Origin: Natronorubrum tibetense GA33
Lineage (GTDB): Archaea; Halobacteriota; Halobacteria; Halobacteriales; Natrialbaceae
Reading direction: 5' to 3'
Assembly: GCF_000383975.1 (NCBI RefSeq)
Contig: NZ_KB913017.1
Location: 2,283,527-2,347,526 of the forward strand
DNA: 64,000 nucleotides
In this document: piece after piece, positions 4,478 through 11,424 of the stretch
Numbering within the stretch: position 1 is the stretch's first letter
Layout of the letters: the number at the start of each line of letters is the position of its first letter
Made by a program: the position numbers and the translations under genes
The notes under the pieces: model-generated
What the model saw: the letters and a program-made list of their open reading frames with translations, nothing else
Databases searched by the model: none
What the model was told of the DNA's origin: nothing

Positions 4478-5848
4478 GTGAACGCGATGGCGATACTCGA
4501 CGACCTCTCGGGCTACGAGTTCGAGGACCTGATGGAGGACGTGTTCCGCCACTTAGGCTACGAAAACGTCCGCCAATCGAGGCGGACGGCCGACGAGGGA
4601 CGGGACATTCTGATGGAAGAGGTCGTCGACGGGAGTCGGCGCGCGGTCGTCGTCGAATGCAAACACACGGAAACCGTCAGCCGTCCAGTCATCCAGAAGC
4701 TCCACTCGGCGGTCGCGACCTACGACTACGACGGACCCGTCCGGGGGATGGTGGTGACGAGCGGTCGCTTCACCGACCCCGCTCGAGAGTACGCCCGGGA
4801 CCTCGGCGCCAGACGGGACGGCGGCGTGGAACTCCTCGACGGCGCGGACCTCCGGGAGATCGGCGAGGAGATCGGCATGGACCTCTATAACGGCCGGATC
4901 GAGATCCTCTGCGAGGAGGTGCTCCGGCCGACCAACCCGACCTGTGGGCGGGACGCACCGGTCTTCGAAGCCGCCCGCGAGATCGAGAACCTCGAGCCCG
5001 CGACGATCCCGACCCCCGAGACGACCGTCTCGCTCGAGCCGATGGTGACCATCCACACGAGAACGAACGCGACGTTCGAGACGTCCGTCGGCGTCATCCA
5101 CCAGGTCGAGGAATCGAACGACCTCGTGATCCGCGCCGAGGGCGACACCCCCCGGATCGAGACCGGCGACGTCAAGGAGCTGGTCGCGAACCCGTCGGCC
5201 CCTCGTATCGACCTCGAGGATCGAAATCTCGAGGCCACCTTCGACGCCGTCGAACGGCGGCGATTCGGTCGGACCGAGACCACCTACAAGCAGTGGGCGA
5301 TCGATCGGCTCCAGCAGGTCCACACCACGACGGTGCAGTACACCGGCGGCAACAACGTCGACTACGAGAAGACCTGTACGCCGCGACCGTCCGATATCTC
5401 GATCTGGTCGATCGATCCGGTCTACGTTCCCCACGTTCGCTCGTGCGTCTCGCTGGGCGAGTACGAGTACGGGTACGCCTACTACGCCGCGGGGCCCTCG
5501 AGGGCGACCACGACGAACGAGTTTCGACAGTGTGTCCACTGCGGTGCCGACGGCGCGAACGAGACCTACACCTACTGTTCCAACTGCGGGAGCATCAACT
5601 GCGACGACCACCTCGAGACGGAGCGACTCGTGGGCGAGCCGGTCTGTACCGGCTGCGCCGTGACCGAGCAGTTCGCGTTCGACACCAAGTACTTCTACGA
5701 TCGGGAGAACCTCGAGGCCTTCCGCGAGGAGTACGCCGAGATGCCCATCCACGAGAAGGCCAAGGAGAACGTGAGACTGGCTGCGGGCACCGTACTCTGT
5801 CTGCTGTTCGCGGCGTTCCTGGTCGTGCTGTCGCTCGGTCTCGTGTAG
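4478..5848 (+). CDS. Mrr-type restriction endonuclease-like protein with zinc-ribbon and C-terminal membrane helix
   Basis: The N-terminal ~120 residues form an Mrr_cat-type PD-(D/E)xK nuclease domain: EFEDLMEDVFRHLGYENV, then DEGRDILM (Asp43) and VVVECKH (Glu60, Lys62). This fold cleaves DNA in defence or repair systems. The middle, about residues 140-330, is a mixed region with no clear match. From about residue 349, CVHCGADG..YCSNCGSINC and a further VCTGC form a zinc-ribbon or treble-clef cluster. The last ~25 residues are a single hydrophobic helix, suggesting anchoring to the membrane. A second Met at 4487 is an alternative start. No methylase or specificity gene is adjacent, so this is a solitary nuclease. 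Confidence 0.8.
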   Translation: MNAMAILDDLSGYEFEDLMEDVFRHLGYENVRQSRRTADEGRDILMEEVVDGSRRAVVVECKHTETVSRPVIQKLHSAVATYDYDGPVRGMVVTSGRFTDPAREYARDLGARRDGGVELLDGADLREIGEEIGMDLYNGRIEILCEEVLRPTNPTCGRDAPVFEAAREIENLEPATIPTPETTVSLEPMVTIHTRTNATFETSVGVIHQVEESNDLVIRAEGDTPRIETGDVKELVANPSAPRIDLEDRNLEATFDAVERRRFGRTETTYKQWAIDRLQQVHTTTVQYTGGNNVDYEKTCTPRPSDISIWSIDPVYVPHVRSCVSLGEYEYGYAYYAAGPSRATTTNEFRQCVHCGADGANETYTYCSNCGSINCDDHLETERLVGEPVCTGCAVTEQFAFDTKYFYDRENLEAFREEYAEMPIHEKAKENVRLAAGTVLCLLFAAFLVVLSLGLV

Positions 5849-6640: not shown

Positions 6641-6812
6641 GGGGGGTCGCCTCGAGCGGCCGTGGAGTCGGCGTCTAAGGGGAACATCTCGGGTGCTCGT
6701 ACGACGATGGGGGTATTGAGCGTTGTACCTGAACTTGCTCCGCTCGAGTTGCTCACTTCGCGTGCGAACGGAACGTGGTCTTAGAAAATGGATATGTAGC
6801 GAATGTAGCTGC

Positions 6813-7139
6813 CTATTCGACGATGAATCCGCTCGCCAATTCCAGAACCTCCGAGCGAGACCGCGGCTGATCGAACGCCATTGGGAATCCGACCTCACCG
6901 TTGAGTTCACGGAGGAACGAGGCATGCCGCGCTTCGACGTTGTGAATGCTAAGCGCTGGCGGAACGAGATCAGCGTTCTCGATGAAGGGAGCAGCACCGG
7001 CGTGAGTCGTGATTTGCTCGGTCTGATCAGAGAGCATGCTGATGATGGGGTCGTGTTCCCACCGGAGCGCTGGGCGGCAACCTTCCGGCTGCACGCCCAG
7101 CTCATCCTCCGTGAACTGAGGAGATATCTCGCCTACTCG
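6813..7139 (-). pseudogene. 3' remnant of a ferritin-like domain gene
   Basis: The minus strand encodes a tail (AGAAPFIENADLVPPALSIH, then NVEARHASFLRELNGEVGFP, ending FIVE-stop) that looks like the C-terminus of haloarchaeal ferritin-like (Dps-related) surface proteins. The conserved Glu-x-x-His (EARH) metal-ligand pair is retained. Upstream, EISPQFTEDELG may be an earlier helix, but the intervening residues are scrambled and a stop codon lies at 7140-7142. The N-terminal half of the four-helix bundle is therefore missing. I call it a decayed gene fragment next to the halocin island. The homology assignment is from memory of the family. Confidence 0.45.
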
Positions 7140-7299
7140 CTACCGCCACTGCTACAGCGACTAATCGAAGACGCTCAGAAGATCCACAAGCAACGACCGA
7201 TCCTCCAAGCAACACGCGCTGCCACCTCCCAACCGGCTGTCGAGGCCTAGTTAAAGGCAAGCAATTCTACAGAATAAAGCATCCTATTCATAAATACAA

Positions 7300-7357
7300 A
7301 CGTGCGCAATACTTGCACCCGTTAAATTTATTATAGAACACAACAATATACAAATGC
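7300..7357 (+). promoter_or_regulatory. Promoter of the halocin-like gene
   Basis: The AT-rich stretch TTAAATTTATTATA (7322-7335) provides an archaeal TATA element about 25-30 bases before the ATG at 7358, consistent with a leaderless transcript. Just upstream lies an imperfect dyad, GTGCGCAA (7302-7309) and TTGCAC (7313-7318), in the BRE position where a regulator could act. Confidence 0.5.
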
Positions 7358-8335
7358 ATGTCAGATACAGAATGGAAGGACGACGTTGATTCCATCGTAG
7401 AAGACGGCAGTGGCTGCGTTGAGACGTGGGAAGCGCTCTCTGAGAAGCGATCATCAGACGAATCAGGGCGTCGGTCGTTTATGCAGCGTTTCGGAATCAC
7501 GGTTGGTGCCCTTTCACTCGGTTCAACGGCAGGGTTCACATCATCCGTGTCGGCTGAAAAAAGCGAGATTGACACAGTTGACCTCCCTAAATCCGAAGCG
7601 CGAGCATTGTTCGGCGAAGCGCGGCAGTACGATGGTTTTCGTGTTGCCTATCAGGAACTAGACGTTGACAGCATTGACCGAGCGTTCCAATATGAACAAA
7701 ATGGAACGGAAGGGAGAGGTCTGGTTCTCGGCAGCGAGTCGAATGACGCACCGGTCCTGTTCTTCTACGATGATGACGAGAAGGGGAAAACAGCGTTTGG
7801 GGGATCACAGATTGAGGACGACGGCCTCAGAATCGTCGATGGCGATGAAGCGATCCGCTACGATATTGGAACACACGACGTTTCAGAGGCGTTCACTCAA
7901 ATTGAATCGACAGCGGAATATACTGACGCGACGAGCGCTGCTAACGGATCCGTGTTCGAAGACGAGATGATATTCGCTCGCTCACTGAAAACTGACGAGT
8001 TTGCACTTCTCGCTCCGGTCGGTGAATCTGATGAGATCACAGATCGGATCGTCGTACAAGGATCCACTAATACGTGGGACCTCACCGCGGATGTCGCCAG
8101 TAATGGTGTGACGACGTTGGGCGATGGCCACGTGGTCTGTGATCCAACAGGAAACATCTGTACAGACTACTGTAAAATCCTCTGTGCCGCCGTCGGTGGT
8201 CTCTCAGGTGCTGCTTGCTTGACAAAATGCTCTGCAACAATCGCTGGCATTCCAATCGCACCAGCATGCGCTTCGGTCTGCGCTGCTGCTGTCGGAGGTA
8301 CCTGTTATCAGACCTGTGTCAACCAAGTTAATTAG
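7358..8335 (+). CDS. Halocin C8-like bacteriocin precursor (Tat-exported)
   Basis: This 325-residue preproprotein has a twin-arginine signal GRRSFMQRFGITVGALSLG (Arg38-Arg39) with likely cleavage after VSA near residue 66. A ~190-residue acidic pro-region follows. The C-terminal ~67 residues hold exactly ten cysteines (261, 268, 272, 276, 287, 291, 304, 308, 316, 320), mostly in C-x3-C pairs and separated by small hydrophobic stretches such as AAVGGLSGA and ATIAGIPIAPA. Halocin C8 is likewise carved from the C-terminus of a Tat-exported precursor, has ten cysteines and is hydrophobic. Its N-terminal part acts as the immunity protein HalI, so the pro-region here may do the same. The gene is visibly AT-richer than its neighbours and has its own TATA box. 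The family call rests on layout and Cys count, not on an alignment. Confidence 0.8.
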   Translation: MSDTEWKDDVDSIVEDGSGCVETWEALSEKRSSDESGRRSFMQRFGITVGALSLGSTAGFTSSVSAEKSEIDTVDLPKSEARALFGEARQYDGFRVAYQELDVDSIDRAFQYEQNGTEGRGLVLGSESNDAPVLFFYDDDEKGKTAFGGSQIEDDGLRIVDGDEAIRYDIGTHDVSEAFTQIESTAEYTDATSAANGSVFEDEMIFARSLKTDEFALLAPVGESDEITDRIVVQGSTNTWDLTADVASNGVTTLGDGHVVCDPTGNICTDYCKILCAAVGGLSGAACLTKCSATIAGIPIAPACASVCAAAVGGTCYQTCVNQVN

Positions 8336-8337
8336 TG

Positions 8338-8400
8338 ATGGTCACGAACAAACAGCCAGATAACTCAATGAAAGAAACACGTGTTATCCGGGGTGGCTAA
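8338..8400 (+). CDS. Tiny ORF coupled to the halocin locus
   Basis: A 20-codon ORF begins two bases after the halocin-like stop and ends with TAA immediately before the ATG of the next small gene. The peptide is polar and basic (MVTNKQPDN...KETRVIRGG). The back-to-back spacing suggests it is translated and acts mainly to couple ribosomes to the downstream membrane ORF. It may equally be a chance frame. Confidence 0.35.
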   Translation: MVTNKQPDNSMKETRVIRGG

Positions 8401-8565
8401 ATGCTCACCTCGGAACAGATTGGTGGATTAGCCGTAATGGCAACCGTCCTCGCTGTCACCGGATTCGTGGCAGTACCCGAACAGGCTTCGCCACTGATCA
8501 CTGCTGCCCTGGTCTGGCTGGTCGCCTTTGGTGCGGGTACTATCGGAGTATTCGCTCTGACTTGA
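8401..8565 (+). CDS. Small two-helix membrane protein downstream of the halocin-like gene
   Basis: This 54-residue ORF has two hydrophobic segments (roughly residues 9-25 and 32-53) separated by the short turn PEQAS. It begins directly at the base following the preceding TAA and shares the AT-richer composition of the halocin-like gene, so the three ORFs are likely cotranscribed. Small hydrophobic proteins next to bacteriocin genes often give immunity or assist export. That role is inferred from position only. Confidence 0.55.
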   Translation: MLTSEQIGGLAVMATVLAVTGFVAVPEQASPLITAALVWLVAFGAGTIGVFALT

Positions 8566-8709
8566 CACGGAGCGGTACCGTTGTGATGGCGGGACAGCCG
8601 TGTTCAAAGACGGGTTGAAAAAAGTGTGAGTACAGCGACCTCGTCGAAGCTGTATTCGACTCGTCGCTCAATGGACCGTCTCATCGGTCGGTGGATTGGT
8701 TATCCCCAA

Positions 8710-11424
8710 TCACTTCGCTGTGCCACTCGCCGTTTTCGTCGAACCCGCCGTAGACTGCTCCTCGAGCAGTCCTCGCGAGGAGTTCCCGACGATCAACGCT
8801 GCACTGAGAGCCAACGCGAGGGTCGTCACCACCGGGCTCAACAGCCCCGCCAGCGCGACGGGGATCACGATCGCGTTGTAGGCGAGCGCCAGCCCGAGAT
8901 TCTGCACCACGCGCCTGCGAGCGCCGCGGGCCAGCGCGAAGGCTCGTTCGACCGCGGCGAGGTCGTCCTCGACGATCGCGAGGTCGGCCGCGTCGGCGGC
9001 CAGCGCCGTCCCGCCGCCGAGCGAGAGCCCCAGATCCGCCGCGGCGAGTGCGGGCGCGTCGTTCGTCCCGTCGCCGACCATCGCGACGCAGCCGTCCTCG
9101 CACAGTCGCCGGACGGCGGCCGTCTTTCCTGCGGGCGGGACGCTCGAGAAGACGCGACTCACCCCGGGATGCGCTCGAAAGCGACCCGTCGCCGATTCGT
9201 CGTCGCCCGTAAGCACCACGACGTCGACGCCGCGGTCGGCGAGCGCGGTCACGACGTCCGTCCACCCCGCTCGCGGCTCGTCACCCACGACGACGAGTCC
9301 TTCCGCGCGTCCGTCCCGGCCGACGATTACAGGGAGGTGGCCGTCCGCTCGCACGTCGTCGATTCGGCTCTCGAGGCGGTCCTCGAACTCGAAGCCCGCA
9401 CCCCGAACGAAGTCGGGGTGACCGACGACCAGCTGCTGGCCGTCGACGACTCCCTCGACGCCGGTCGCGTGGCGTTGGAACTCCTGGACAGATTTCTCTT
9501 CCGGGCCGTCACCCGTCTCACTCGCTTCTTCGTCGGCGATTCCGCCGTCAGATCGCGCTCGCTCGTTCCCACCATCCGTTCGTACCCACTCGCCCCCGCC
9601 CTCGTCGACCCCGTCGCTGAAGGCGTCCGCGATGGCTGCCGCAGCCGGATGTGCCGCGCGTCGCTCGAGCGTCCCAGCAGCCCGAAACAGTTCGTCCGGC
9701 CCCTCGGCCTCGAGCACGGTCATCTCGCCGGTCGTGAGCGTTCCGGTCTTGTCGAAGACGACACAGTCGACCTCGCGCAGCCGTTCGAAGACGCTCTCGT
9801 CGAAGACGACGATGCCGGCCTCGAGGGCGTCGCGGATGCTCGAGGCGATCGAACACGGCGTCGCGAGCGCGAGCGCCCACGGACTCGCGACGACGATAGT
9901 GACGAGGACGGCCGACGCGACGGTGGGCGCACTCGAGCCCAGCAGGACGGCCGCGAGGCCCGCGACGACCGCAGCGACGACGACGAGCGGGAGAGCGAGC
10001 CCGGCGAGCCCGTCGGCCCGGCGCTGGACGCCGTGATCTGCGCTTTGAAGATTCCAGACGGTCCGAGTCAGCCGCTCGATGCTGCTCGCGGTCCGGTCGC
10101 CGACGTCGACGATTGCGGCGTCGCCCGTCACGACCGAGCCGCCGATCACCGCGTCGCCCGCGGTTTTCGAAACCGGGAGAGACTCACCGGTGACGACGGC
10201 TTCGTCGACGGTGCACTCGCCCTCCGCGACGCGGCCGTCGACCGGGATCCGCTCGCCAGCCCGGACGAGCAGGCGGTCGTCGGCCGCGATGTCCGCCACC
10301 GGAATCTCTCGCGTCGTTCCGTCGGACTCGAGGACGCGACCCGTGTCGACCTGCGAGACCGTGAGGTCGGTGAGCCGGTTCAGCGCCGCGCGCTTGACGG
10401 TTTCCTCGTAGAAGACGGCGGCCATCACCGTCGCAGCGACGAGAATCGTCAGGTCGTAGTAGACCTCGGGTCGCCCGACGAGAAAGGACAGCGTGCCGTA
10501 GCAGAAGGCCGACACGATCGTCAGCGCTGCGAGCAGCTGCGTACTCGGCCGCCGGAGTTTCAGGCTCACGTACGCCCCGCGAAGCAACGGCATTCCGGTC
10601 AGGTAGAGGACGGCGGCAGTCAGCACGAAGAAGAGGGGCAGGAACAGCATTCCGTCGAAACTCGCGAACGTCTCGCCGTACTGTGCGAACAGCCAGTACT
10701 CCGTGTACCGGGAGAGATAGACGGGGTAGAACACCGTCACGTACGGCACCAGCAGGAACGAGCCGAAGACGATCCCGACGATGTAGCGGATCTCGAGGAC
10801 GTCCTCCGAACGTCGCTTGCGCATCCCCCGCATCTCGCGCGATCGGCGGGTGGTGCTCGCGACGTCCTCCCGTCGCCCGGAAGACACGGAATCGCCGCCG
10901 TCCTCACCAGTGGCCTCCTCGCGGCGATACGCGGTGTAGCCCGTTCTGCTCAGCGCGTCCTCGAGTTCCGCCGCCGACACCCGTTCGGGATCGTGATCGA
11001 CCTGCACCGTCTCCGTGACGTAACTCGCCGCCGCGTCCGAGACGCCCCCGTACCCTTCGGCGATCGACTCGAGGTAGGACTCACAGAGCGTCGAGTGCAT
11101 GCCGTCGACCCGGAAAAACGTACGCGCGTGCTCGGCGGGAGTCGCCTCCGTGGACGCCGCCTCCGCGGTGTCACTCTCGCCCTCGGCTGACTCTCCCTCG
11201 GCGATGCGATCGTCGCCGTCGGGGCAGCCAAGTTCCGCGGCGACCTCGCGGCAGCCGCTCGAGCAGAACGACCTCTCGGGCTCCGACTCCGGACCGACAG
11301 CCGCCTCCGACGCCGACTCCAAATCCGCACCGACAGCCGCTTCCGACGCCGATTCGCCCACGGATTCGGAACACACCGTGTCACAGAGGCGACAGCGATC
11401 GCGCGTCGATCCCCGATCACTCAT
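8710..11424 (-). CDS. Heavy-metal translocating P-type ATPase (FixI/CcoI-like)
   Basis: This 904-residue P1B ATPase would move transition-metal ions (probably copper) across the membrane. The N-terminus has CRLCDTVC and, after an acidic insert, FCSSGCREV, the metal-binding layout seen at the front of FixI/CcoI ATPases. A heavy-metal-associated domain follows in which GMHSTLCE replaces the usual GMxCxxC. Then come the membrane helices and the intramembrane ion motif ATPCS (TPC instead of CPC). The catalytic motifs are DKTGTLTTG (phosphorylated Asp), AAHPAA (nucleotide-binding His-Pro) and GDGTNDAPALAAADLG. A repeated acidic ESASEAAVG linker sits near the N-terminus. The start at 11424 excludes an Arg-rich upstream extension. 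Confidence 0.9.
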   Translation of the reverse strand: MSDRGSTRDRCRLCDTVCSESVGESASEAAVGADLESASEAAVGPESEPERSFCSSGCREVAAELGCPDGDDRIAEGESAEGESDTAEAASTEATPAEHARTFFRVDGMHSTLCESYLESIAEGYGGVSDAAASYVTETVQVDHDPERVSAAELEDALSRTGYTAYRREEATGEDGGDSVSSGRREDVASTTRRSREMRGMRKRRSEDVLEIRYIVGIVFGSFLLVPYVTVFYPVYLSRYTEYWLFAQYGETFASFDGMLFLPLFFVLTAAVLYLTGMPLLRGAYVSLKLRRPSTQLLAALTIVSAFCYGTLSFLVGRPEVYYDLTILVAATVMAAVFYEETVKRAALNRLTDLTVSQVDTGRVLESDGTTREIPVADIAADDRLLVRAGERIPVDGRVAEGECTVDEAVVTGESLPVSKTAGDAVIGGSVVTGDAAIVDVGDRTASSIERLTRTVWNLQSADHGVQRRADGLAGLALPLVVVAAVVAGLAAVLLGSSAPTVASAVLVTIVVASPWALALATPCSIASSIRDALEAGIVVFDESVFERLREVDCVVFDKTGTLTTGEMTVLEAEGPDELFRAAGTLERRAAHPAAAAIADAFSDGVDEGGGEWVRTDGGNERARSDGGIADEEASETGDGPEEKSVQEFQRHATGVEGVVDGQQLVVGHPDFVRGAGFEFEDRLESRIDDVRADGHLPVIVGRDGRAEGLVVVGDEPRAGWTDVVTALADRGVDVVVLTGDDESATGRFRAHPGVSRVFSSVPPAGKTAAVRRLCEDGCVAMVGDGTNDAPALAAADLGLSLGGGTALAADAADLAIVEDDLAAVERAFALARGARRRVVQNLGLALAYNAIVIPVALAGLLSPVVTTLALALSAALIVGNSSRGLLEEQSTAGSTKTASGTAK

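Follow-up and report, generated by a model that had tools for sequence, protein, structure and literature searches.

A Tat-signal precursor with the layout of halocin C8 and a separate cysteine-ladder core: a candidate microhalocin cassette in Natronorubrum tibetense

The window analysed here, a stretch of 64,000 nucleotides from Natronorubrum tibetense GA33, contains an open reading frame of 325 residues that spans exactly positions 7358-8335 of the plus strand and whose product is built from four consecutive parts, all coordinates being given on that strand. The N-terminal leader (residues 1-36; 7358-7465), which the original prediction did not set apart, contains the segment DGSGCVETWEALSEKR (residues 16-31; 7403-7450) and includes Cys20, an eleventh cysteine. 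The leader is followed by a twin-arginine signal peptide, recognized from the sequence in residues 37-66 (GRRSF...VSA, GRRSFMQRFGITVGALSLGSTAGFTSSVSA; 7466-7555) and likely cleaved after A66, and by an acidic pro-region (residues 67-257; 7556-8128) with 43 D and E against 14 K and R, that is, a net charge of -29. The C-terminal core peptide (residues 258-325; 8129-8332; about 6.6 kDa before disulfides, the exact N-terminus of its mature form being a prediction) is hydrophobic (GRAVY 0.85) and neutral in net charge; its ten cysteines, at residues 261, 268, 272, 276, 287, 291, 304, 308, 316 and 320, are spaced 6-3-3-10-3-12-3-7-3 and form a ladder of five C-x3-C steps. The Tat signal, the acidic pro-region and the ten-cysteine hydrophobic tail originally predicted are all present, the tail measuring 68 residues. 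Upstream, a putative TATA box, TTTATTATA (7327-7335, plus strand), lies about 27 nt 5' of the ATG, a pattern as in leaderless haloarchaeal transcripts, and its position is consistent with a leaderless archaeal transcript here. Downstream, 65 nt after the precursor gene, follows a membrane ORF of 54 residues with two hydrophobic segments (8401-8565, plus strand).

Pfam and NCBIfam models gave no match to the precursor protein. In searches of haloarchaeal genomes, relatives of the core tail were found in G060, G090 (two copies), G149, G365 and G403, of which the last three represent three further families of the order; with the window copy, the core is common to seven sequences from six genomes, and a weak match occurs in G386 (E 1e-4). 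The spacing C3C10C3C12C3C7C3C, which comprises eight cysteines in four C-x3-C steps, is kept in all seven, placing the gene beyond chance: the ORF at 7358-8335 is a real, conserved gene. The five steps of the original prediction can be counted in the window copy, and four of them are invariant; the homologue in G365 lacks the first two core cysteines. Intact full-length precursors are found in the window, in G149 and in G365, and their pro-regions are homologous (blastp of the window copy against the two relatives, E 9e-10 and 1e-9). The remaining copies are truncated or frameshifted: in G403 the precursor is divided between two frames, in one of the G090 copies the leader contains an in-frame stop and the frame also changes, and the G060 copy lacks its N-terminus. 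Neither plasmid and phage records (tblastn) nor the viral contigs searched contained a match to the precursor.

The precursor gene and the small ORF lie within an insert of low GC content (53%; about 2 kb; 6776-8755) that is missing from the corresponding position in four syntenic congeners; G108, whose match is at about 85% on both sides, has just about 0.3 kb in place of the insert. GC content is 48-54% over the precursor gene against 62-72% in the flanks, and GC3 is 0.51 for this gene and 0.84 for the ATPase gene next to it. This drop and the missing counterparts point to a recent insertion of the cassette at this place, or to its repeated loss elsewhere. Bacteriocin genes are usually scattered in their distribution and subject to decay, and a core family that is patchy and often broken, within an insert missing from congeners, conforms to this. 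Also inside the insert is the remnant of a ferritin-like gene (6813-7037, minus strand), which matches Pfam Ferritin_2 at its C-terminal end only (E 5.7e-7). At 4487-5848 (plus strand), the window encodes a protein with an Mrr-type restriction endonuclease domain (Mrr_cat, E 6.9e-25) and a weak C-terminal match to DUF7577, conserved in syntenic relatives.

The closest parallel in layout is ProC8, the precursor of halocin C8 (TIGR04449, NF040679), a Tat-exported proprotein that also has an acidic pro-region and a C-terminal hydrophobic ten-cysteine peptide, and which after export is cut into HalI and a peptide of 76 residues (PMC11509114). The predicted halocin C8-like architecture is borne out by this common layout and by the leader type and gene order that the precursor shares with halocin C8-like loci: some members of the halocin C8 family have the leader, and a small membrane ORF downstream is common among them. 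The core itself is unlike that of halocin C8, with no detectable sequence relation and with a spacing, as anticipated, that differs from the 2-7-3-7-13-7-8-8-5 found there. TIGR04449 does not match the precursor protein, and in the source genome it finds another locus only (C1:490384-490590, E 2.9e-16). That locus encodes a genuine halocin C8-like precursor of 274 residues (L061:8770-9594; G000 C1, about 490 kb), and a 59-residue two-segment membrane ORF begins about 28 nt after it.

In a profile-profile comparison (hhalign) the two cores reach a probability of 4%, and the HMMs of either family score the other, in both directions, no better than shuffles; on these grounds direct homology of the cores was rejected. 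The TIGR04449 member L028 also has an internal C3C12C3C, and kinship through this element was rejected as well, because 627 of 1000 Cys-preserving shuffles score equally well; for L047, the best of six TIGR04449 members tested, the score is reached by 23 of 1000. Membership in the halocin C8 family, as first proposed, thus does not hold up against the HMM comparison that the proposal itself had named as its test, while the functional analogy survives it. The pro-regions can be aligned to C8-like ones over the first helix only, at a marginal hhalign probability of 29.6% (P 6e-4), so that they may be related, over one helix at most. The N-terminal helix-loop-helix of HalI reportedly confers immunity, and it might be argued that the precursor is a divergent true halocin C8 member whose core has drifted past sequence recognition and whose pro-region is its own immunity protein. 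The same layout and gene order, the leader in common with L028 together with its C3C12C3C, and the weak first-helix alignment would fit such a descent, but the missing TIGR04449 match, the core profile probability and scores at the level of Cys-preserving shuffles, L028 included, make it improbable. The core is best explained as a family separate from halocin C8 that is carried on a shared precursor framework. In G365 (C68, L054:5919-10880), a TIGR04449 gene and a member of the new family lie about 3 kb apart.

The framework is most evident in the leader, a segment of 36 residues before the Tat signal with the motif GxGCxExWExLSExR, which is also found in the true TIGR04449 precursor L028 and in several other Cys-rich precursors; classic halC8 lacks it. 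Its profile has matches in 365 of the 391 haloarchaeal genomes searched, and what it finds there is mostly a stand-alone protein about 37-55 residues long. Among 49 distinct motif-bearing ORFs in a scan of the fetched loci, 39 are short and ten are long; all ten long ones contain RR, and eight have 8-13 cysteines within their last 80 residues, the exceptions being G107, which looks truncated, and G189. The Cys-rich tails behind the leader represent seven types of spacing, one of them TIGR04449 (L028). On contig C2 of G147 (L101, L102), three leader-bearing Cys-rich precursors with different core types occur within about 40 kb, and a small membrane ORF lies downstream of each.

At the junction between pro-region and core, 14 of about 34 collected precursors, including the new-family members in G060 and G090, carry the VSTQ-type motif [VIFLM][ST][TVISA]Q within 25 residues before the core. 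This motif occurs 14 times in the 910 residues before the core against 3 times in the 5581 residues of remaining pro-region, a 29-fold enrichment per residue, for which the P value of 5e-10 is optimistic, as the pattern was defined after the sequences had been seen. The window copy has a degenerate junction, VTTLGDGH, that departs from VSTQG.

Of the 12 precursor loci that bear the leader or belong to the new family, 8 have a small ORF with at least two hydrophobic segments that starts no more than 100 nt downstream; for control genes the figure is 4 of 145 (Fisher P 3e-8, an approximate value because the loci are related). Such ORFs are also common after halocin C8-like genes, in a form of 54-70 or one of about 120-130 residues; classic halC8 loci have no such ORF within 250 nt, and according to Sun et al. 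(2005), as cited in PMC12893001, classic halocin C8 needs no separate immunity gene. The intact relatives in G149 and G365 have no small membrane ORF directly downstream, and what follows the G365 family member is instead an ORF resembling an ABC transporter ATPase, together with a membrane ORF. Within the new family, the small ORFs are on the whole more alike than those that follow other cores, with Z scores of 4.4-5.2 between the window and G060 and about 6.5 between G090 and G403, and of only 0.1-0.2 between the window and G403.

The ORF at 8401-8565 is probably the cognate immunity protein. As it is known by size, hydrophobicity and position alone, and as two intact relatives do without it, it could also be a helper in export, processing or anchoring, or the second peptide of a two-component bacteriocin; both roles are compatible with the precursor's being a microhalocin. 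We regard such a role as rather unlikely: the small ORF varies with the core family, as a cognate immunity protein would, though so would the partners of a two-component system. A broader objection is that the core might be a secreted Cys-rich peptide of non-antimicrobial function, one that serves in signalling, forms part of the envelope or binds metal, since one leader on several types of core would also be in keeping with a role in signalling or in the envelope. The link to small membrane ORFs, the patchy distribution, the frequent inactivation and the co-occurrence with halocin C8-like genes better fit a locus of antagonism, however, and leave this objection little weight.

For the core alone, AF2 predicts four short helices with one C-x3-C each (pLDDT 81, pTM 0.61), so that pairs of disulfides could hold neighbouring helices together. 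The full-length model (pLDDT 48) was discarded as unusable; at its low confidence it suggests one long helical hairpin instead. Sequence searches for a solved structure matching the core found none, and fold searches of the PDB and BFVD with the core model gave weak, unrelated matches and no meaningful one. The predicted arrangement recalls the plant α-hairpinins, helix-loop-helix peptides of the pattern C-x3-C-xn-C-x3-C in which two helices each carry a C-x3-C and are joined by Cys1-Cys4 and Cys2-Cys3 bonds (PMC7191063). The paired C-x3-C motifs characteristic of these peptides are invariant in all seven core sequences, and the AF2 model places each of them on a helix of its own; the core would thus hold a tandem of two such units, with n = 10 and n = 7. 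It differs from the plant peptides in being archaeal, predicted to be Tat-exported, a double unit, neutral and hydrophobic, and no sequence relation between them was found; the likeness is presumably convergent. In Haloferax mediterranei, the secreted precursor HFX_0892 (HmHapP) acquires antagonistic activity on proteolysis; its active part, unlike the core described here, is the N-terminus, with two α-helical motifs, and the report mentions no cysteine or disulfide (PMC12893001).

These observations are best accommodated by a horizontally acquired two-gene microhalocin cassette, consisting of a Tat-exported precursor, the probably membrane-active tail cleaved from it and the small ORF as its likely immunity partner, a reading to which we assign a probability of about two in three. 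In its favour count the ProC8-like layout, the leader shared with L028, the enrichment of small ORFs and their mutual likeness within the new family, the VSTQ-type junction, the neighbouring TIGR04449 gene in G365, the patchy occurrence on an insert and the four-helix model of the core; against it count the degenerate junction of the window copy, the lack of a small ORF in G149 and G365, the reported lack of need for a separate immunity gene in classic halocin C8, and the absence of a PDB fold match for the core. By analogy with the export and cleavage of ProC8, and with halocin C8, under whose action sensitive cells become round and lyse (PMC6759562), we infer the following course of events. 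The Tat pathway would export the precursor, in which the pro-region would probably render the peptide harmless until its release, and the C-terminal 68 residues would be freed by proteolysis at the junction to the acidic pro-region. The freed peptide would fold compactly into its four short helices, adjacent ones clamped by disulfide pairs like two tandem hairpins of the α-hairpinin type, and a fifth disulfide would lie at its N-terminal end. Neutral and hydrophobic, the peptide would most likely kill other haloarchaea via their membrane, and the 54-residue membrane protein would probably protect the producer. In our assessment, the precursor would work like one of the halocin C8 type, yet with a core from outside that family.

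A description of this core family was not found in the open literature searched, to which the primary work on halocin C8 contributes through references only. The genes of only a few archaeal antimicrobial peptides are known, and the precursor would add an undescribed core family to their number. Two features of the sequence, the leader and the small membrane ORF that immediately follows the gene, connect halocin C8-like precursors with other Cys-rich ones and serve as handles by which archaeal peptide antibiotics and candidate genes for immunity can be discovered systematically, with no need for similarity in the toxic part. The most interesting part is that one leader is common to several core types with small membrane partners. 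Tentatively, and at somewhat below even odds, this may reflect a combinatorial precursor platform of haloarchaea, in which a leader derived from a near-universal small protein, fused before the Tat signal, is put to use for several Cys-rich killing peptides that are unrelated to one another, every one of them paired with a small membrane protein for immunity. Our guess is that the leader acts as a cytosolic recognition tag; if the platform exists, this tag would be common to its precursors and would offer a handle for finding new archaeal antibiotics. The stand-alone leader protein belongs to no Pfam family, and its neighbours, which show no consistency among 27 loci, do not indicate its function. 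One such protein, of 48 residues (GAGCTEIWEHLAKQR), is encoded in the source genome at L067 (G000 C1, about 2037121-2037228).
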